NCBI GenBank assembly: GCA_944321335.1
Contig: CALUKX010000023.1
Location: 1-40,788 of the forward strand
Length of the DNA stretch: 40,788 bases
Reading direction: 5' to 3'
Source of the DNA: an uncultured Phocaeicola sp.
GTDB taxonomy: Bacteria > Bacteroidota > Bacteroidia > Bacteroidales > Bacteroidaceae
The number at the start of each line of letters is the position of its first letter. Position 1 is the first letter of the stretch. The notes beneath the pieces were generated by a model. The model had not been told where the DNA came from. It saw nothing but the letters and a program-made list of their open reading frames with translations, and did no database searches. A program made the translations under genes and the position numbers. This document shows positions 5,484-40,788 of this stretch, in pieces.

Positions 5484-6184
5484 TTTTTATATTCTTCAAT
5501 AGTTTTCTTCAATCCAAGATAAAGTGCATCACAAATCAAGGCATGACCGATTGAAACTTCATCCACCCACGGAATATTCTCATGGAAATACGCCAGATTC
5601 TCCAGGCTCAGGTCGTGACCGGCATTCAGTCCCATACCTAAATTGCGGACAATCGTTGCAGCTTCGACAAAAGGAGCGATAGCTTCTTCACGGTTCTGCG
5701 CATACTTGGACGCATACGGTTCGGTATAAAGTTCCACACGGTCGGCACCGGCCTTGGCGGCATATTCGATCATTTCAGGATCAGTACCCACAAAAATGGA
5801 GGTACGCACACCGGATTTGCCGAAAACATCCATCAGTTCACTCAAGAAAGTAAAGTGATCCTTGGTATTCCAACCGGCATTCGAGGTAATCTGATCCGGA
5901 GCATCCGGCACCAACGTTACCTGATGCGGCTTGACACGGAGCACCAGATCGACAAACTCCTTCGAAGGATAACCTTCGATATTGAATTCTGTATGTAAGA
6001 TAGGACGCAAAGCCAACACATCGGCATAACGGATGTGACGTTCATCCGGACGTGGATGAACGGTAATACCTTCTGCACCGAATTTCTCACAATCTAACGC
6101 TACTTTCTCCACATCGGGATTATTTCCGCCTCGGGCATTCCGCAAGGTAGCTACCTTGTTTATATTCACACTTAATTTAGTCAT
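5471..6184 (-). CDS. pdxJ: Pyridoxine 5'-phosphate synthase
   Basis: PdxJ condenses 1-deoxyxylulose 5-phosphate with 3-amino-1-hydroxyacetone phosphate to give pyridoxine 5'-phosphate (vitamin B6). The 237-residue TIM barrel has the family's N-terminal [14 protein letters not shown] and the active-site HPRPDERHI motif, plus GLNAGHDL near the C-terminus. It is the first gene of the minus-strand operon and is divergent from nadK. A TAACTTTG -7-like box lies upstream at 6223-6230 (minus strand), with no good -33 box. Confidence 0.96.
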
Positions 6185-7221: not shown

Positions 7222-9726
7222 TTATTTCACCGTTTTGGTCTTTATACAGATTACATTCAAAGAATAAGCCGGTAATTCATAATCGAATTTCTCACTCACC
7301 TTCAGCTTGCTTTCAACCGGCTTGACATTCTGGTCGACAGGTTTTCCTGTCAGTACATTCAGTACCGCTTCACTTGAAGGCAGGCCCGGACAATTGACTG
7401 TTGTCTTCACAGATACCGGCAACAGATTCACCAATTTGATGATCACATCACCACTCTTGCTATCTTTTATGATAGAGGTTCCAATCCGCTTGTTTACATC
7501 CCCACGGTTATTGTCTGTAGTACGGTTGGCAGGCAGATAAGTATCTCCCGAATTCTGTCCGTAAAGCAACTGGGTATAATAACCTACAGTCGGTTTCACT
7601 TCCTGATTATTGAAATAAATCAAATCCGGACTCCATTGAGTATGGCCTTCTTTCGCCAACAACGGAGCATACGATGACATTGTTACCACATCACCGTTAC
7701 GTTCTACGGCAGTCAGATACAAAGCCTCAGCCAATGCTGTCTCAACGTTATTCGGTCGGCCAGGCAGATGCGCTGCATATTCACCCAAATAAACCTTCGA
7801 CTTGGTACGATCGTAAGCATCGTAGAAATTCTGATTGTTGATGAACCAACCCGGAGTATTGTAGTAATGCTCATCCACCATCGGAATATCCAGCTTGTCG
7901 GCCAATTTCCATCCTTCTTCATAATCGGTACCTTCATAGAACGGACCTACCGTACCGATAATTGTGATTTCAGGATATTTCTCACGCACTACATTATAAA
8001 TCTTGGTAAAACGTTCTTCAAACACATCTGTAATCAAATCCTCATTACCGATACCGATGTATTTCAAGTTGAAAGGTTTCGGATGACCTGCCTCAGCACG
8101 CATCTTCGCCCATTTGCTGGTTTTCGGATCACCGTTGGCATATTCTATCAAATCAAGAATATCCTGAATATAGGCATCCATCTCTTCCATCGGAATACCA
8201 CATTGCTGGCCGCCACTCAACAATTTTCCTTCAATATTGGCAGAGTTCTGGCAAGGAACACCGGCTGAAACAACCGGTACAGGTTCAGCACCCAGATCTT
8301 CGCAGAACTGGAAATATTCGTAATAACCCAATCCACGGGTCTGGTGATAATTCCACAAGTTACGCAACGGTTTACGAGCTTCCAGCGGACCGATAGAACC
8401 TTTCCAGTCGTAGATATTATCAATTCCGTTACCATGAGCTACACAACCGCCGGGGAAACGCATGAAACGAGGATGCAGATCGGCAATAGTCTGAGCCAAA
8501 TCCTTGCGCAAACCGTTCTTATGGCCTTTGAACGTATTTTGTGGGAAAAGGGAAATCAAGTCCAAGTGATAGGTTCCGGCATTCTGCGGAGCGACCACCA
8601 GTTCAGCGGCTCGTACATCGGCTGTAGCTGTTATCACACCCGAAACTTTCTTCCATTGAGTAGAAGACACTTTCACAGACGTCTGACCGACCGTCTTTCC
8701 ATCCTGATCAACCAGCAACACATCGACCTTGCCGCCTTTCATGCCGGCAGGCACTCTTCCAAAGAGTGAGAAATCATACTTCTCTCCTTTCTTCAGCACA
8801 ATGCCATCGAAACCCGGATTTTGCAGGCGAGCTCCAGGAGTCTGAACCTCGAATACAGCATAATGGGAATTATTGGCATGAATCGGGTCTTCAGTAGCGA
8901 TAGAGAACTTGCCTCCTTCTCCCTTCACGCTCCAAGCATAATCCGACGTGAAACCTTGCGGAGCACCATCCGACGGGCTGTACTCAAAATCACGGTTCTG
9001 TACCAATTCTGCATACAAACCGCCATCGGCACCGTAATTGATATCTTCGAAGAAAACACCGATCAGTTTGTCGCTGATAGGACGAGCCTCATCAGGAAGG
9101 ACATCCAATTGCATTGTCACATCCTTCAGTCCGTTGAAACGATGTTCATCCTGAGCTGTACATTCAGCTTCCACCAAAGCCTTGTTGGCACGATATCCGG
9201 CAAACTTCACCATCTTATCAACTTCGCTCCAACCTACTTTCTGCATATAACCATTCTGCAACGTACCATCGATCAAAACCGAAGCTTCTTTTTCGGCAGC
9301 AGATGACTTAAAATCGGGAGCTGCATGAATACCTTCCTTGCATCCATTCAAGAAATAACTCTGACGAGTCCAGGCCAACAAATCGGAAGAAGCCGCATGT
9401 CCCATTTCCATTCCGTTCTCATTCAGCTGCCACACACAGTGCCACAAGCCGTCTGTTCCACGCATCAAACGGGGTTTTATCATCCGCTTTTCCGATCCCC
9501 ATGCTCCATAATCACATTTCACATATCCGTAAGCATCGCCCACGCTGAACCATTGTTTGGCATCGCGGCTCCACGCAAATTTCAATCCGCTACGTCCGGC
9601 ATCCTGATCTGTAGCATAAGAAAAAAGATAAACAGAATCAAGCCGGTTTACCATATCCTGTCCTTGAACAGACACCGGCAAAACAGTCAACGCCGCCCCC
9701 AAAGCAGCCACGTGTTTCCATTTCAT
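7222..9726 (-). CDS. Secreted GH51 alpha-L-arabinofuranosidase
   Basis: An 834-residue exported glycoside hydrolase predicted to release arabinofuranose from plant arabinan or arabinoxylan. A signal peptide covers about 1-22 and lacks a lipobox cysteine. An N-terminal region (about 30-135) has beta-propeller-like GH43-type repeats. A CBM4/9-like jelly-roll insert is at about 255-395. The GH51 barrel follows, with the acid/base in GIGNEDL (Glu562) and the nucleophile in VYLGEYAAH (Glu649), then a C-terminal beta domain. Single-enzyme context: no susCD genes are next to it. The -7-like box CAAAAATA (minus TATTTTTG) is at 9770-9777. Confidence 0.93.
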   Translation of the reverse strand: MKWKHVAALGAALTVLPVSVQGQDMVNRLDSVYLFSYATDQDAGRSGLKFAWSRDAKQWFSVGDAYGYVKCDYGAWGSEKRMIKPRLMRGTDGLWHCVWQLNENGMEMGHAASSDLLAWTRQSYFLNGCKEGIHAAPDFKSSAAEKEASVLIDGTLQNGYMQKVGWSEVDKMVKFAGYRANKALVEAECTAQDEHRFNGLKDVTMQLDVLPDEARPISDKLIGVFFEDINYGADGGLYAELVQNRDFEYSPSDGAPQGFTSDYAWSVKGEGGKFSIATEDPIHANNSHYAVFEVQTPGARLQNPGFDGIVLKKGEKYDFSLFGRVPAGMKGGKVDVLLVDQDGKTVGQTSVKVSSTQWKKVSGVITATADVRAAELVVAPQNAGTYHLDLISLFPQNTFKGHKNGLRKDLAQTIADLHPRFMRFPGGCVAHGNGIDNIYDWKGSIGPLEARKPLRNLWNYHQTRGLGYYEYFQFCEDLGAEPVPVVSAGVPCQNSANIEGKLLSGGQQCGIPMEEMDAYIQDILDLIEYANGDPKTSKWAKMRAEAGHPKPFNLKYIGIGNEDLITDVFEERFTKIYNVVREKYPEITIIGTVGPFYEGTDYEEGWKLADKLDIPMVDEHYYNTPGWFINNQNFYDAYDRTKSKVYLGEYAAHLPGRPNNVETALAEALYLTAVERNGDVVTMSSYAPLLAKEGHTQWSPDLIYFNNQEVKPTVGYYTQLLYGQNSGDTYLPANRTTDNNRGDVNKRIGTSIIKDSKSGDVIIKLVNLLPVSVKTTVNCPGLPSSEAVLNVLTGKPVDQNVKPVESKLKVSEKFDYELPAYSLNVICIKTKTVK

Positions 9727-9873
9727 GACATTAAAAGATTTAAGTTATGTTTTTCAAAATTATAATGGGCAAAAATACACTTATTATATGAAATAGCCTA
9801 ATTTACAGAAACAAATATCTGGTTTCAAAGAATGTTTAACGACATATTCAGACTGTTTCTGCCTGAAAAGAAA

Positions 9874-34639: not shown

Positions 34640-34806
34640 TTTAATAGTCCCGACGGGACTACTACCTCTTAAGGATGTTGTAAAAACTATTCAAATTATT
34701 AAAATCTATTCTGTTTTTTGCATAAGTCACGCAACCCTGAAAGGACTGCTGTACCTTATCGGGCGCAACAACCGCCCGCTACCGGTTATCTGACTGATAC
34801 AATCAG
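34640..34806 (-). ncRNA. Candidate omega RNA of the IS607-family TnpB
   Basis: Read on the minus strand, the 3' end of tnpB and the DNA past its stop hold a series of hairpins: CTGAT/ATCAG (34794-34806), CGGGCG/CGCCCG (34760-34778) and a 7-bp stem TAGTCCC/GGGACTA (34645-34661). TnpB guide RNAs normally overlap the tnpB end and run to the element's right end, with the guide taken from flanking DNA. Exact ends are not resolved. Confidence 0.35.
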
Positions 34807-35959
34807 ACTCACCGACTACTTTTCTCAAGATGTTCACCGCTCCGTTCACGTCCGCATTGATGTATTTCCCTGTGGAAGAACGGAACAGTCCACGTTTTAC
34901 CCTCTTCCCAAGATAAGATTCATGTCTCCCGATTTCTTCCTCTGCAAGCGCATCACATTTTGATGTATAGGATTCTTCATTTTCCACGAACCGTATGCCA
35001 GCCATTTCACATTTATATTTCAGATAGGAAGCCAGTCTCGCAAACGGAATCTGTACGAACTTCTGATTGTTGCGCTTTCCGATGTTTACCGACTGTTTCC
35101 AGCCGGTGTTGTAGCCTACAACTAAGTTCCCTATTCTGTTTTCTATAAGATGATTGACTATCATGCGGCTGTATTTGTGAAACGCATCCTCAAAGTATCT
35201 GTCACGCTTTTCATAAAGATTTTGCATCCGCTTTGTAGCTTTCTTTATTCCCTGCTTGTCCTTTATGCTTTGCAGCTTTGCAAGCTGGCGGTTAAAGTTT
35301 CTGTTGTAGGATTTCAGGAACTTGCCGCTATAAAGAAAGCTGCCTTTCTCCGTTACCATCGTAGCCAGATTGTCGATGCCCAAATCTATTGAAGCGTATC
35401 CGGACTTGTCTAAATCTGCATTTTTGGCTTCATAACGATAAACTATTTCAACTTTCATCTTCTTGCCGTAAGGAAGTATTCTTACTTGCTGAAAATCCTG
35501 AATGCGGTCCTTATACTTCTCCCATTGAGGAATAGGGATAAAAAGGTCTTTAGCAAGACAGATTATTCCATCCTTGATTCTTGCCGACTGATTAGGATAA
35601 TACAGATTAAACAGGCTTCCGCGCTTTCTGAAAGACGGAAGCTGCGGCATAGCCTTGTATTTGGCAGGGTGTGCCTTAAAGTCCTTTATAGCCTTGCAGT
35701 ATGCTTTCACATTCCTGTCCAGAACTTTCAGAATCTGCTGCGATACCTGAGCTTTGAGGAGCCTGTAGTTTATCTCTTCCTCAAGGTTGGGTGTAGCTTT
35801 CATCAGCTTATCCATATCGGCATACCAAAGCCATTTGTTTTCATTCTTCAAAGTCTGACGGAACAGGTATAAGGCCTGATTGTAGAGGTTGTTTGAAACC
35901 TTGCACAGGTTTACAAGCTGTTCCGTTTGCGGAATGTAAAAACTATATATCAAGTTCAT
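34727..35959 (-). CDS. tnpB: TnpB, RNA-guided nuclease-family protein (variant active site)
   Basis: A 410-residue OrfB/TnpB protein, the family ancestral to Cas12. The RuvC-I motif is ASIDLGIDN (Asp192), and RuvC-III is INADVNGAVNIL (Asp370). At the RuvC-II position, where TnpBs have Glu in a pattern like VIVIEDL, it reads LVVGYNTGWKQ with Gly282. Before RuvC-III the usual CxxC...CxxC zinc finger is reduced to one cysteine (Cys335 in YTSKCDALAEEE). Glu326, 328 and 329 are nearby. It may use a rearranged catalytic site or be nuclease-dead. Its start overlaps the end of tnpA by 17 bp. Confidence 0.9.
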   Translation of the reverse strand: MNLIYSFYIPQTEQLVNLCKVSNNLYNQALYLFRQTLKNENKWLWYADMDKLMKATPNLEEEINYRLLKAQVSQQILKVLDRNVKAYCKAIKDFKAHPAKYKAMPQLPSFRKRGSLFNLYYPNQSARIKDGIICLAKDLFIPIPQWEKYKDRIQDFQQVRILPYGKKMKVEIVYRYEAKNADLDKSGYASIDLGIDNLATMVTEKGSFLYSGKFLKSYNRNFNRQLAKLQSIKDKQGIKKATKRMQNLYEKRDRYFEDAFHKYSRMIVNHLIENRIGNLVVGYNTGWKQSVNIGKRNNQKFVQIPFARLASYLKYKCEMAGIRFVENEESYTSKCDALAEEEIGRHESYLGKRVKRGLFRSSTGKYINADVNGAVNILRKVVGESDCISQITGSGRLLRPIRYSSPFRVA

Positions 35960-36551
35960 TTTTCAAGTCCTCCCTTATCAGTTCCATTTTCTTTTTCCGT
36001 CTCCTTGAATACATCTTCATGGCAAAGCAGTGAAGCATTGAAATGATGTCGGAAAATATTTCCTTCTCATCATCTTCAGTCGTTGATTCGGTTTTGTTGA
36101 TTACAATAATCTTGCAGTTGTATTCCAAAAACAGACGTTCAAACATATCAAAGGATATTCTGCTGAAGCGGTCTTTGTACGTAATGTATATACTCCTTAT
36201 TCTATAATTCAAGACATCTTCCAGCATAGAGCGGAACTGTTTCCTTTCAAAATTCATTCCGCTTGCTATATCCTTATACACTTTATCTACTTTCACTCCA
36301 TTCGCATTACAATAGCTTATAAGAGTTTCTGCCTGATTCTCGAGGTCTCTTTTCTGTTTAGAAGTTGAAACTCTCGCATAAACCACATTTACACGATTTT
36401 CGGAAAGTCCGGCTTTTCGATATACGTCTTCTTCGTTGTAGTCATACTGCTTGTTCGCCTGCATCACTACACGTATATCGCCATTCTTTACATATTTGAC
36501 AAGCGTTTGCCTGCTAATATTTAATATCTTTAATACCTTTGATGATTTCAT
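35943..36551 (-). CDS. tnpA: IS607-family serine recombinase TnpA
   Basis: A 202-residue transposase. The N-terminal MerR-like helix-turn-helix (about 4-46) has LNISRQTLVKYVKNGDIRV. The serine recombinase domain begins VVYARVSTSKQKRDLENQ, with likely nucleophile Ser62, then YKDRFSRISFDMFE (about 133-146) as the catalytic arginine helix. The family cuts and joins a circular intermediate with little target preference. A consensus promoter (-33 36583-36586, -7 36556-36563, 19 nt apart) overlaps the start. Confidence 0.92.
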   Translation of the reverse strand: MKSSKVLKILNISRQTLVKYVKNGDIRVVMQANKQYDYNEEDVYRKAGLSENRVNVVYARVSTSKQKRDLENQAETLISYCNANGVKVDKVYKDIASGMNFERKQFRSMLEDVLNYRIRSIYITYKDRFSRISFDMFERLFLEYNCKIIVINKTESTTEDDEKEIFSDIISMLHCFAMKMYSRRRKKKMELIREDLKNELDI

Positions 36552-36922: not shown

Positions 36923-38077
36923 TTAAAAATCACCTTCATAGTTTTTAATCAGCGAGTTAGCTTCCTGAATGTCGTGAGGCGTATAGATATCAGTCATCAG
37001 AATACTGCTGTGTCTGGCCTGGTCCCGTACCGACAGTACATCATAATGCCGTAGCATATTCGTGATGCCGGTATCCTTCAGGCTGTAGAACTTATACGTG
37101 GTCGGAAACTTCAAGTCCTTCCGTACGTGGGCAGCCCACCAATCACGGAACATCTTCTCAGAAACCTTCTGAGGCCCAGGCTTGAAGCCCTTGGAAAATA
37201 AATAATCACTTGAAGCTGCATTGAAGATTCCCAAATCAAGCATCAAGTGAATAACCTTGGCCGGAAGGGTAATCGTGCCATCCTTTTTATTCTTCGATAT
37301 CGTGTCCTCAACGAAGATTGTCTGCCGCTTCAGCGATATGTTCCCTACCCGTAACCGGCACATCTCGGCCGGCCGGATGAAACAGCAATAAAGTATATAG
37401 CTTCCCAACAAGAAATACTTATTCTTCTCGAGCAGGTATTCGTTCAGCATCTCGAGCTGATGCTGTTGAATGATTGTGCGGTTTTTCTTTTTGAAGTTCC
37501 TCCCAAGGATGGCTATTCCTTCAGTCGGGTTCGCCTTGATATAGTTCTTAGACAGACAGAACTGGCTGAACTGCCGAAGAAAAGCCAGATAATTATCTCT
37601 GGTATATGCTGTATTGTCCCTGACAACATATACTTCGTCCAGGAACTCAATACAGAAATCCTTATCGAACTGGTAGATGTAAGTGATGGGTACTTTCTTA
37701 CCTTGATTGAATTCGACCATGTTTTTCAGCTGTGAAGTATAGGCCTTGTGTGATTCGCTCCGATAAGTGCCATCCCGTAACAGCTTGTCGATATAGCTGC
37801 GATATCGCTTGACAACCTCATGGAAAGTCATATAGGCCGACCCATGCTCCTTCTCGATCCACGGGTTCCAGCCGAGAGCAAGCTTCTCGGCCAACCGGTT
37901 CATAAAATCTTTGGCGTATTTCCTCCGTTGACCAGGAGCGATTGAATTCAGTTTGATTTTTTTCCTTCGCATCTTCCCCTGGGCGGGATCGAATGCGTAA
38001 AAGTCGATGTAGACTTCTTTCCCTGCACCGTGATATACCGGTGGTGTGTAGCTTCGGATAGATTGTAATGTAGGCAT
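36923..38077 (-). CDS. Tyrosine recombinase integrase of the integrative element
   Basis: A 384-residue phage-type integrase. An Arm-DNA-binding N-terminus (about 1-75), a SAM-like core-binding domain (about 80-185) and a catalytic domain (about 200-375) are visible. Catalytic residues: Arg235 in CCFIRPAEMCRL, Lys near 262-265, Lys334 in FYSLKDTG where the second Arg normally stands, His356 in QARHSS and nucleophile Tyr365 in TDIYTPH. The SLK(H/D)TG variant is usual in Bacteroidetes integrases. The gene points away from the tRNA-Pro attachment site, 62 bp from the right 20-bp repeat. Confidence 0.93.
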   Translation of the reverse strand: MPTLQSIRSYTPPVYHGAGKEVYIDFYAFDPAQGKMRRKKIKLNSIAPGQRRKYAKDFMNRLAEKLALGWNPWIEKEHGSAYMTFHEVVKRYRSYIDKLLRDGTYRSESHKAYTSQLKNMVEFNQGKKVPITYIYQFDKDFCIEFLDEVYVVRDNTAYTRDNYLAFLRQFSQFCLSKNYIKANPTEGIAILGRNFKKKNRTIIQQHQLEMLNEYLLEKNKYFLLGSYILYCCFIRPAEMCRLRVGNISLKRQTIFVEDTISKNKKDGTITLPAKVIHLMLDLGIFNAASSDYLFSKGFKPGPQKVSEKMFRDWWAAHVRKDLKFPTTYKFYSLKDTGITNMLRHYDVLSVRDQARHSSILMTDIYTPHDIQEANSLIKNYEGDF

Positions 38078-38205: not shown

Positions 38206-38212
38206 ATACTTG

Positions 38213-38227
38213 GTCGGAATGAGGCGA
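38213..38227. repeat. Right attachment site (15-bp direct repeat)
   Basis: GTCGGAATGAGGCGA, identical to 33688-33702. Fourteen of its bases are the 3' end of tRNA-Pro, so insertion leaves the tRNA intact. Confidence 0.85.
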
Positions 38228-38286
38228 CTCGAACGCCCGACCCCTACGTCCCGAACGTAGTGCGCTACCAACTGCGCTACATTCCG
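38214..38286 (-). tRNA. tRNA-Pro(CGG)
   Basis: A 73-nt cloverleaf without encoded CCA. Acceptor stem CGGAATG/CATTCCG (7 bp), D stem GCGC/GCGC, anticodon stem CTACG/CGTAG with loop TTCGGGA (anticodon CGG), T stem GGGCG/CGCCT with TTCGAGT loop, and discriminator A. The C1-G72 pair is typical of bacterial tRNA-Pro. Its 3' end is the integration target of the element to the left. Confidence 0.95.
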
Positions 38287-38458: not shown

Positions 38459-38531
38459 GGTGCCATAGCTCAGTTGGTAGAGCAAAGGACTGAAAATCCT
38501 TGTGTCCCCGGTTCGATTCCTGGTGGCACCA
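38459..38531 (+). tRNA. tRNA-Phe(GAA)
   Basis: A 73-nt cloverleaf, no encoded CCA. Acceptor stem GGTGCCA/TGGCACC, D stem GCTC/GAGC, anticodon stem AAGGA/TCCTT with loop CTGAAAA (anticodon GAA), T loop TTCGATT and discriminator A. A recombinase remnant follows it, so its 3' end probably served as an integration site too. Confidence 0.95.
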
Positions 38532-38555
38532 CTTTGAAGAAAAGCAAAAGATAGT

Positions 38556-38588
38556 AAAATCCTGATTTCCAAGCGAAATCAGGATTTT
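38556..38588 (+). terminator. Terminator after tRNA-Phe
   Basis: A 14-bp perfect stem (AAAATCCTGATTTC 38556-38569 and its complement 38575-38588), 5-nt loop, followed by T residues; 24 nt past the tRNA. Confidence 0.88.
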
Positions 38589-38634
38589 TTGTTTTCTCCC
38601 GACACGCAAAAAACGGCAAAATATTACCGTTCGA

Positions 38635-38680
38635 GGTGGAGCAAAAGGTGGAGATAAAAGGTGGAGCAAAAATCTCCACC
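38635..38680. repeat. GGTGGAG repeats before the recombinase remnant
   Basis: GGTGGAG occurs three times directly (38635, 38647 and 38660, spaced 12-13 bp) and once inverted (CTCCACC 38674-38680), the last pair forming a 7-bp hairpin. Regular spacing close to one helical turn, between tRNA-Phe and the recombinase, suggests integrase arm-type sites. Confidence 0.55.
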
Positions 38681-38774: not shown

Positions 38775-39167
38775 ATGAAAAGAAGTTCATTCAATGTGCT
38801 TTTCTTCTTGAAGAAGACCAAGCTGCTGAAAAACGGAGAAGCATCCGTTTGTATGCGTATCACTGTAGATGGTACGCGAGTTGAAAACAACATCCGCAAA
38901 AGCATTGACCCGTCTCTCTGGAGTCAGGCTAAGGAATCCGCCAGAGGCAAAAGCCGCAAATCATGCGATCTGAATGCCTACATCGAAAATGCGAGAATCA
39001 AGTTACATCAGATTTTTTGTGAGCTGGAAGAACAGAACCAGCCTATAACAGCGCGTCTGTTACAGGAAATATTTTTCGGACAGGACAAAGAACCGGAAGC
39101 GGTCCGCACCTTTATCGGTACCATGCAAGAGCATAATAACCAATGCCGTGCCTTAAATTGTCTGTAA
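38775..39167 (+). pseudogene. Truncated tyrosine recombinase (N-terminal part only)
   Basis: A 130-residue reading frame with the start of a Bacteroidales integrase. An Arm-DNA-binding region (about 1-60: VLFFLKKTKLLKNGEASVCM, RKSIDPSLWSQ) leads into the core-binding domain, up to EHNNQCRAL. Relatives continue for about 270 more residues with the R-H-R-Y catalytic domain; here the frame ends four codons later. The break is near 39154-39170. A TACTTTTG -7 box (38744-38751) precedes it. A functional N-terminal DNA-binding protein cannot be excluded. Confidence 0.75.
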
Positions 39168-39170
39168 CTT

Positions 39171-39245
39171 ATGAAAAGAGAAATTATCCATATAACGGAG
39201 GACGGCAGAATACTTATCCGCCCCAACAATTACGTGAGTATATAA
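39171..39245 (+). pseudogene. Possible N-terminal remnant of another mobile-element gene
   Basis: A 24-residue frame, MKREIIHITEDGRILIRPNN, then stop after four more residues. Its opening recalls short HTH proteins often found near Bacteroidales integrases, but this is from memory and weak. It lies 4 bp after the recombinase remnant and suggests a deletion junction in this area. Confidence 0.25.
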
Positions 39246-39308
39246 TAAGCAAACTGTTCCTATCTGAAAAGCAGATGTTTATCTGCATGGTGAATAGAAA
39301 TCATAAGT

Positions 39309-39328
39309 CATATCTAAAATGCGGATAA
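39309..39328 (+). repeat. Cassette-flanking repeat, copy 1
   Basis: CATATCTAAAATGCGGATAA matches 40760-40779 in 19 of 20 positions, same orientation. It runs into the palindrome at 39321-39359. Confidence 0.65.
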
Positions 39329-39359
39329 TAAGCCGCAAAATTTGCGGTTAATTATCCGC
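39321..39359. repeat. 39-bp near-perfect palindrome
   Basis: Two 19-nt arms around a single A match at 17 of 19 positions; outer arms GCGGATAAT/ATTATCCGC, inner arms CCGCAAA/TTTGCGG. No T run follows on the plus strand, so it is unlikely to be a plain terminator. A smaller hairpin GCAGAT/ATCTGC (39271-39286) lies just upstream. Confidence 0.75.
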
Positions 39360-39407
39360 GAAACTCTCTTAAATTAGTATTATATGAAGTTTATCGTGAT
39401 AAATCAT

Positions 39408-39415
39408 TACCTTTG
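39408..39415 (+). promoter_or_regulatory. -7 box of the first cassette gene
   Basis: TACCTTTG, identical to the tRNA -7 boxes here, ends 19 bp before the ATG at 39434. It overlaps a possible TTG start at 39413, which argues for the ATG. No clear -33 box. Confidence 0.5.
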
Positions 39416-39433
39416 GAAGTAAATATAAAAAAT

Positions 39434-39793
39434 ATGATTGAACCTTTTAAAGATTATGGAGATTTTGTAAACCATAAAAACGAACGAATTATCTGTTTCA
39501 ATATAAGCAGAACATATTTGGGTTGTGAACGTCCGAATTTATATGAATGTACCCGCAAATATTGGAGATTAAATGGTCAACGAGCCAAGAAAGCAGATTT
39601 AGTTTTTGCAATTTGTTGTGGTTATATTGTTGGAATCTTCAAGCCGCATCATTGGTTTCCTACCCAATGTGAGAAATACAAAGGACGATGGGAGTTTGAA
39701 GGAGAACAAATATTTGATTCTCCTTACCAGAATCAAGATATATCAAAAATCGTACGTAACAGACAAAATCCTGTGATGTATATAAACATGTAG
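39434..39793 (+). CDS. Unknown 119-residue protein in the AT-rich cassette
   Basis: A small cytoplasmic protein, with no signal peptide or membrane segment. Visible landmarks are ICFNISRTYLGCERPNLYECT, then KYWRLNGQRAKKADLVFAIC, GYIVGIFKPHHWFPT, RWEFEGEQIF, and RQNPVMYINM at the end. This order (LYE.T...W, AxxVFA, W.P, R.EF.GE, QNP..Y.N) resembles a domain I associate with restriction- and defence-type proteins, but I cannot name the family with certainty. It is AT-rich compared with the core genome. A TTG start at 39413 is rejected because it lies in the promoter box. Confidence 0.7.
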   Translation: MIEPFKDYGDFVNHKNERIICFNISRTYLGCERPNLYECTRKYWRLNGQRAKKADLVFAICCGYIVGIFKPHHWFPTQCEKYKGRWEFEGEQIFDSPYQNQDISKIVRNRQNPVMYINM

Positions 39794-39797
39794 TTAT

Positions 39798-40673
39798 ATG
39801 ACAGCAAATTCTGATTTAATAATATATCAAGAAAACGAACTTTACGGCCTGAAGGATTGTAATGGCAATGTCATTATTTCTCCTCAATATAAGGAAATGT
39901 ATCCATTCAGTTGTGGTTTAGCTCTCGTCAAAAACAATAAGTCCCAACTTGGTTACATAAATAAAGAAAATAAACTCATAGTACCGTTTGATTTATATTC
40001 TTGGTGTGACCCACAATTCGTTTGTGGATATGCGCGGGTTGTACGCTATAATACAATAAGCGGGAAAGACGAATGGGGAATTATAGATACAGATGGTAAT
40101 GTCATTGTACCTATAAAATATGATAAGATATGGTCTCTTAATGAAAGTTATCTACATTCGGTTAAAGCTTTCATTGAAAATAAAGAGGTTCTTATAAATC
40201 TTTGTATATTTCCTAAACGTGTTGTTTTTAGCGGTTTAAAGTATATAGCAACATATACGATAGAAGATTTCAAAGCTATTTTTAATTGTACACGTATAGA
40301 TGTAAAGGTAAATCCAAAGACAGAAGAACTATTTTTCTCTTACGGGTGCCACACTGGGTATGTTGCATTAAAATGGAAGCCAATCGCGCCAGTTATATCA
40401 GTAGTTATTAATAGTGCCGGTTCTCTCTTTTTGCTTCTACATGAAAGAGAAGATACGGGAAAAACAAACTTTGAAAAAAGTATTTATAAAAGACAAAGGG
40501 AAAAATCATCTACACAGAAACAACAACTTTCTAATACAACTTCTTGGGAGTATGAAAAAGAAAATACAATAGATTCAGACAGTTGGAGTGACCCATATGG
40601 AGACGAACGGGCATATTATGATGGTTGGTCTAGAGAAGATGTCGAGTCTGGATTAGCTGATGCATACGAATAA
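39798..40673 (+). CDS. WG-repeat protein
   Basis: A 291-residue protein. The N-terminal third has WG (KWG) repeats: LYGLKDCNGNVIISPQYKEM (about 16-35), QLGYINKENKLIVPF (about 50-64) and EWGIIDTDGNVIVPIKYDKI (about 91-110). Two more blocks have diverged. The C-terminus (about 235-291) is polar and acidic, with YYDGWSREDVESGLADAYE. No signal peptide or membrane segment. WG-repeat proteins of Bacteroidales are often in toxin/immunity or defence islands, but the molecular role is unknown. It starts 4 bp after the 119-residue gene, so both are likely on one transcript. Confidence 0.8.
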   Translation: MTANSDLIIYQENELYGLKDCNGNVIISPQYKEMYPFSCGLALVKNNKSQLGYINKENKLIVPFDLYSWCDPQFVCGYARVVRYNTISGKDEWGIIDTDGNVIVPIKYDKIWSLNESYLHSVKAFIENKEVLINLCIFPKRVVFSGLKYIATYTIEDFKAIFNCTRIDVKVNPKTEELFFSYGCHTGYVALKWKPIAPVISVVINSAGSLFLLLHEREDTGKTNFEKSIYKRQREKSSTQKQQLSNTTSWEYEKENTIDSDSWSDPYGDERAYYDGWSREDVESGLADAYE

Positions 40674-40759
40674 TTCATTTCTGAAAAAATAAATCAAAAG
40701 AAACTTTAATCTATAAATTATTTAAGGTTTACAAAGTAAAATCACAAGAGTTAGTCAAG

Positions 40760-40779
40760 CATATCTAAAATGCTGATAA
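40760..40779 (+). repeat. Cassette-flanking repeat, copy 2
   Basis: CATATCTAAAATGCTGATAA, one mismatch to copy 1. It lies 87 bp past the WG-repeat gene and is cut off 9 bp later by the window end, so a following palindrome could not be checked. Confidence 0.65.
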
Positions 40780-40788
40780 ATATTGATT

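Follow-up and report, generated by a model that had tools for sequence, protein, structure and literature searches.

Described systems and the locus studied

Recombinase-associated acquired interbacterial defence (rAID) clusters are defined in PMC12247911 by a rAID-type recombinase homologous to BF9343_RS08045 and at least two co-directional genes with a GC content below 41%; orphan immunity genes and conserved intergenic motifs are named as further criteria. According to PMC12923530, PD-T4-3 has been renamed CMoRE and is a type IV modification-dependent restriction enzyme, whose C-terminal domain binds 5hm-dCTP and whose N-terminal GIY-YIG domain is the nuclease. PMC13174449 describes DUF4062 as a TIR-like NADase and relates it to the phage-defence system Swarozyc. 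We compared these systems, integron cassettes and the integrative mobilizable elements (IMEs) found at tRNA genes of Bacteroidales with a locus of an uncultured Phocaeicola sp. (GenBank assembly GCA_944321335.1, contig CALUKX010000023.1, positions 38775–40788), in which a truncated recombinase gene is followed by two small genes between two copies of a 20-bp repeat. The first-pass annotation had read this locus as the possible start of a recombinase-associated gene-cassette array. Our analysis indicates that it is probably a decayed, stacked integration site at tRNA-Phe.

The window, that is, the whole stretch of DNA that was analysed, is one whole contig (G000:C23, 40,788 bases), and its end is the contig end. 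The source genome (2.67 Mb, 95 contigs, 84% complete) was compared with a genus set of 61 genomes, which includes it, and a family set of 399 genomes. Genomes are labelled G### and the loci of relatives L###; L029 is in genome G007. All features lie on the forward strand unless the minus strand is indicated.

The structural parts of the proposed cassette were confirmed. The truncated recombinase gene is an open reading frame (ORF) at 38775–39167, in which Pfam recognised the arm-binding domain PF17293 only. The two 20-bp copies (39309–39328 and 40760–40779) are identical at 19/20 positions, and the first runs into a 39-bp near-palindrome (39321–39359) with 19-nt arms that are 89% complementary. 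Between the repeats lie two AT-rich genes, gene 1 (39434–39793, 119 amino acids) and gene 2 (39798–40673, 291 amino acids), preceded by a promoter-type box of their own, TACCTTTG, at 39408–39415. This box, found by direct reading, fits TAnnTTTG, the −7-type consensus of Bacteroidales, and a similar box precedes gene 1 in L189–L192. A repeat pair of 19/20 was obtained in 0/40 dinucleotide shuffles of 38775–40788, and the 20-bp pattern was found three times at ≤3 mismatches in the whole window against 0.06 expected. Elsewhere in the source genome, the 20-mer has only three 3-mismatch matches, one of them at window position 5633.

The recombinase and its island at tRNA-Phe

A tRNA-Phe (gaa) gene, the insertion site of the island, was located at 38459–38532 using ARAGORN, and the integrase start follows at 38775; tRNA-Phe also stands before the integrase in L026, L027, L029, and L036. 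The 3′ end of the tRNA gene (38515–38539), which is the copy on the side of the left attachment site (attL), occurs once in the window at ≤3 mismatches. No duplicate representing the right attachment site (attR) was found in the window at the same threshold, and it may lie past the contig end.

The intact integrase of L029 has 410 amino acids and the domains PF17293, PF13102, and PF00589. Compared with L035, the window integrase is short of approximately 840 bp (BLAST); the Pfam match and this gap identify the ORF at 38775–39167 as the first ~127 and the last 3 amino acids of a 410-residue tyrosine recombinase. Integrase matches at E≤1e-150 were obtained in 14 of the 61 genus genomes, the remnant of the window itself falling below that cut-off. 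The six best matches were 98–100% identical to the L029 copy and the next four 89–90%.

The L029 locus has the order tRNA-Phe, integrase, small gene, two helix-turn-helix (HTH)-type genes (PF12728 in the one scanned), MobA/VirD2 relaxase (PF03432), and further genes, some of which are restriction-like by eye. The window stretch 38514–38647 recurs as attR at the far end of this island (87% over 134 bp), which gives a length of 13.3 kb from tRNA-Phe to attR. The L029 island, bounded by attL at the tRNA and by attR at its distal end, is an IME. The same order is found in L034, L035, and L036, where a Fic gene (DUF4172, Fic) separates the small gene from the HTH genes. No relaxase was detected among the ORFs scanned in 38775–40788, whereas PF03432 is present in L029. 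Homology and position both assign the window recombinase to a mobilizable island at tRNA-Phe, as its integrase.

Upstream of the integrase start, at 38635–38680, GGTGGAG occurs as three direct repeats and CTCCACC once as the inverted form; these are also retained in L029. They are possibly arm-type integrase sites.

This identity of the recombinase bears on the rAID reading, in which the locus would be an array of immunity genes. A tyrosine recombinase followed by two co-directional genes below 41% GC satisfies the numerical rule as given in PMC12247911; the GC contents of genes 1 and 2 are 0.336 and 0.337, respectively, and that of the window is 0.450. However, the recombinase is that of a tRNA-Phe island, behind whose intact copies HTH genes and a relaxase are found. 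There are two genes only, and the 4-bp gap between them holds no repeated motif. The suggested hidden Markov model search of both proteins against immunity families gave no match in Pfam, NCBIfam, PADLOC, or PHROGs. Up to the contig end, neither immunity families nor a repeated intergenic motif was found: the palindrome core occurs once in the genome and the 20-mer, its 3-mismatch matches aside, at the ends of the segment only. We thus regard a rAID cluster as very improbable.

Both repeats as ends of one small gene

The integrase remnant is followed at 39171–39328 by the remnant of a small gene, which has 124 amino acids and no Pfam family in relatives and stands there after the integrase; comparison with L035 revealed an internal deletion of approximately 220 bp. 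The sequence CATATCTAAAATGC represents the last codons of this gene, and the next 27 bp in relatives, stop codon included, form the spacer before the palindrome. The order gene end, 27-bp spacer, and palindrome was observed in 9 of the 16 palindrome rows. In the first repeat of the window (39309–39328), the 3′ end of the small gene (39309–39322) is joined to the palindrome; the two touch because 29 bp between two ATGC motifs were lost, as is evident from a BLAST gap of 29 against L035.

The second repeat and the following 9 bases (40760–40788) are exactly the last 29 bases of the contig and consist of the small-gene end and the first 15 bases of the spacer; they copy the junction found in relatives. 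This stretch is 29/29 identical in L028, L029, L031, L032, L034, and L035 and 28/29 in L030, L033, and L036. A family-wide search for the junction gave 0–1 mismatch at nine places in eight genomes of the same genus and two further 1-mismatch matches in other genera; the 2-mismatch matches among the 399 genomes are partly chance. Both repeats are therefore ends of the same gene, and most likely they are paralogous gene ends and not recombination sites of a cassette.

The terminal position of the second copy would also suit an assembly effect, in which one short k-mer carried the contig over into sequence shared with the intact island of another strain. The copy coincides exactly with the final 29 bases in an assembly of 95 contigs and 84% completeness, and 29 is a default k of a common metagenome assembler. 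However, no homology that could explain a false path was seen by eye at the join, and we consider such an artefact unlikely.

The palindrome and the Fic gene

The 27-base core of the palindrome occurs once in the source genome, with no copy on the other contigs of the bin, and is present in 15 of the 61 genus genomes, including the source genome. For counting, each locus contributed its best place only, and places that shared identical 80-bp surroundings were merged into one, which left 16 distinct places. A Fic start lies just downstream of the palindrome in 11 of them (10 by script and L132 by eye). In most relatives the palindrome (39321–39359 in the window) ends 7 bp before the TAnnTTTG box of the Fic gene, which reads TATATTTG or TATCTTTG in the cases read. 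In L134 and L138, whose 3-kb loci contain no recognised integrase, the palindrome also precedes a Fic gene. The Fic gene is absent at the window locus, and a Fic query of the source genome gave only a distant match (26%) on contig C1. The window palindrome is 39/39 identical to those of L028, L031, L034, L035, and L039.

These positions suggest a putative operator, perhaps bound by the C-terminal HTH of the Fic protein itself; the C-terminus of that protein gave weak HTH_11 and DeoR matches, below the cut-offs. The palindromes of L138 and L037 are variants that differ from that of the window; both arms nevertheless remain symmetric in part, which suggests that a dyad site is conserved upstream of the Fic gene.

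Two other roles of the palindrome were considered and rejected. A cassette site or recombinase core is at odds with the Fic starts that follow in 11/16 places and with the tRNA end as the attachment site of the island. A terminator of the integrase operon is at odds with L037 and L039, in which the palindrome comes after a tRNA-Phe end and no integrase intervenes; the palindrome also lacks a T run behind it.

Stacked islands and the proposed history of the locus

Beyond attR, L029 carries a diverged small-gene end, the palindrome, and a Fic stub; therefore, two repeat-like ends flank that island. In L031, a small-gene remnant, the spacer, the palindrome, and the Fic gene follow immediately on a tRNA 3′ fragment (95% over 109 bp), and a 90%-identical integrase lies approximately 16 kb upstream on the same contig. 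The integrase of L035 is preceded by a tRNA 3′ fragment and not by a whole tRNA, as in stacking. These arrangements indicate that new islands insert at the tRNA beside older ones. Furthermore, the small-gene remnants that precede the Fic gene shorten progressively across L030, L031, L032, and L038.

We propose the following history for the observed parts, the deletions, the stacking in relatives, and the recurrence of the cargo pair elsewhere without repeats. A mobilizable island with integrase, small gene, usually Fic, two HTH genes, relaxase, and variable cargo would have inserted at the 3′ end of tRNA-Phe. Deletions in the window lineage would then have eroded the integrase, the small gene, and the 29-bp stretch, so that the palindrome from upstream of Fic was left over, followed by the two-gene cargo; the Fic and mobilization genes are not in the contig. 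The remnant of an older island at the right would supply the second small-gene end. On this view, the second repeat most likely derives from the small gene of an older remnant of the same island family, as its eroded 3′ end; we infer this remnant, because the contig ends inside it.

A different origin would be a circular unit of palindrome, gene 1, gene 2, and a 14-bp core, which a tyrosine recombinase inserted site-specifically at the 3′ end of the small gene. It would duplicate the 14-bp core, in the manner of integron cassettes or of small integrative elements that are non-autonomous. The 3′ end of a gene is a usual type of target for site-specific insertion, and one insertion between the 14-bp end and the spacer yields both junctions, end plus palindrome on the left and end plus original spacer on the right. 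However, the window is the single instance, and the nine rows with gene end, spacer, and palindrome are all uninterrupted. The gene pair elsewhere lacks the repeat and the palindrome (the best matches in L189–L193 are 14–15/20 and 21–23/39, respectively), the palindrome is usually part of the Fic upstream region, and the integrase has its own attachment site in the tRNA end. We therefore hold this insertion to be improbable, if slightly less so than the assembly effect.

The stacked integration site remains the probable reading, and several observations weigh against it. The interval from gene 2 to the second repeat contains no attR copy, in contrast to L029 and L031, and the homology of the second copy begins exactly at CATATC for no visible reason. 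A single unit insertion would give both junctions in one step, whereas stacked remnants need two events. No Fic start follows the palindrome in 5 of its 16 distinct places, the window included, and in L026 and L027 the palindrome stands behind the integrase with no small gene. Lastly, the palindrome is conserved at 39/39 positions though Fic is gone here, so that the loss of Fic must be recent.

The interpretation as an integron-like cassette was thus not borne out: the repeat is a gene 3′ end, the palindrome usually precedes Fic, and the cargo pair is found elsewhere with neither. One unit at most is seen, the contig ending at the second copy, and no site travels with the pair in L189–L191, which have neither repeat nor palindrome.

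The gene pair and its possible DUF4062 partner

Gene 1 (39434–39793) matched the PADLOC profile of PD-T4-3 at E 6.7e-10, over profile positions 136–208 of 256 only, that is, in the C-terminal part. Against the crystal structures 9u75/9u7u, the single sequence gave E ~8e-5, and a nine-sequence profile gave 4.2e-10 and 7.1e-9. From these PADLOC and PDB profile matches, gene 1 is a homologue of the 5-hydroxymethylcytosine-sensing domain, a stand-alone version of the C-terminal domain of CMoRE/PD-T4-3. Gene 2 (39798–40673) encodes a WG-repeat protein (PF14903, Pfam). The suggestion of defence or immunity cargo holds in part: homology supports a defence-type assignment for gene 1, and neither protein matched an immunity family.

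In the family set, gene 1 was found in 28/399 genomes (E≤1e-8) and gene 2 in 8/399 (E≤1e-30), the source genome included in both counts. They lie side by side in the window as well as in G163, G256, and G111, which represent three other genera. Neither the cargo nor the junction was found in viral contigs. Gene 2 had matches in 35 phage records, in no case over 80% of its length; for gene 1 there was a single phage match, with 34.5% identity over 92%.

Relatives of gene 1 in L164, L167, L168, L172, L177, L179, and L180 appear by eye to be fused to, or to stand beside, ORFs that look GIY-YIG- or HNH-like, as if one sensing domain were combined with different effectors. A small ORF that carries a LIDTGATHN-type motif and by eye looks like an aspartyl (retropepsin-like) protease is found near other WG-repeat relatives of gene 2, in L150, L151, L152, and L193.

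In G163, G256, and G111, the pair is followed by a third gene of 483–486 amino acids; the one scanned contains DUF4062, HATPase_c_4, and a winged helix. G255 has a 133-residue ORF in place of gene 2, with DUF4062 near gene 1, and in G124 gene 1 (with one internal stop) precedes the DUF4062 gene with no WG gene. In L189–L192, the module lies between genes that are ordinary by eye; no recombinase was recognised beside it, and it has neither repeat nor palindrome. The repeats are therefore no part of the module. A DUF4062 gene is absent beside genes 1 and 2 in the window, where its start would fall near 40730–40760. Contig C16 of the source genome carries a DUF4062 gene (L202, reverse complement, 8345–9802) 84% identical to the third gene of the module; beside it are two convergent ORFs, chromate-transport-like by eye. 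The DUF4062 proteins keep a TEREY motif, taken for the putative catalytic glutamate region.

These neighbourhoods raise the possibility that gene 1 detects modified phage DNA and works with the DUF4062 NADase as effector, which we put forward tentatively. Somewhat more doubtful still is the fuller proposal that gene 1, gene 2, and DUF4062 form an undescribed defence module, in which a nuclease-free modified-cytosine sensor would trigger the TIR-like NADase via a WG-repeat partner; here the effector, at a separate locus, could act in trans. Three observations count against such a partnership: DUF4062 is near gene 1 in 5 of the 28 gene 1 loci only, with none found in the others (approximately 1.5 kb seen on each side); the DUF4062 gene of C16 stands alone, neither gene 1 nor gene 2 being present in the 18 kb examined; and gene 2 occurs without gene 1 in L040. 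A literature search of titles and abstract openings found no description of the combination; the name Swarozyc was itself not retrieved by that search, probably owing to an accented spelling. The gene pair is possibly a new variant of phage-defence genes.

The element itself is most likely an ordinary decayed mobile island. This assignment disposes of what is likely a false lead towards an integron-like system in Bacteroidales and illustrates how the two junctions of a decaying tRNA island can mimic a cassette with terminal repeats. In several genera, the compact gene pair in turn connects a modification-sensing domain with a DUF4062 NADase gene. Cytosine-modifying phages escape ordinary restriction. 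If the proposed partnership is true, modified phage DNA would cause loss of NAD+ rather than DNA cleavage, and a sensor coupled to NAD+ depletion and not to a nuclease would be a different answer to such phages.

Neighbouring features

A second tyrosine integrase (PF00589, 384 amino acids) at 36923–38077 (minus strand) adjoins a tRNA-Pro gene at 38211–38286 (minus strand). It stands back to back with the tRNA-Phe remnant, and the two are likely integration sites within 400 bp of each other. At 34727–36551 (minus strand), a serine resolvase gene (PF00239) is followed by an OrfB_IS605/TnpB gene with a Cas12f1-like TNB domain, which we take to be an IS607-type pair.

Comparison with known systems

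The locus shares with rAID clusters, as outlined in PMC12247911, a tyrosine recombinase followed by short, low-GC, co-directional genes; it differs in having an island integrase, no immunity match, no visible array, and no motif between the genes. The likeness to integron cassettes, a recombinase outside a repeat-bounded gene segment, is superficial: no array is seen in the window, the palindrome usually stands before a Fic gene, and the repeat forms the 3′ terminus of a gene. In regard to the tRNA IMEs of Bacteroidales, the relatives agree in the integrase at tRNA-Phe, attR derived from the tRNA 3′ end, HTH genes, relaxase, and variable cargo (restriction/helicase-like by eye), whereas the window copy is a remnant, with a truncated integrase and neither relaxase nor attR within the contig.

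The cargo compares with other systems. Gene 1 lacks the GIY-YIG nuclease domain of CMoRE/PD-T4-3 and stands beside a WG-repeat gene, whereas its predicted protein matches the domain reported to bind 5hm-dCTP in the section of PMC12923530 cited above. The DUF4062 protein differs from Swarozyc in carrying HATPase_c_4 and a winged helix (in the one scanned), and in the source genome its gene stands alone on another contig and not beside the pair. In keeping with Swarozyc as presented in PMC13174449, a DUF4062 protein follows the gene 1–gene 2 pair in three genera and lies near gene 1 with no WG gene in two more genomes.

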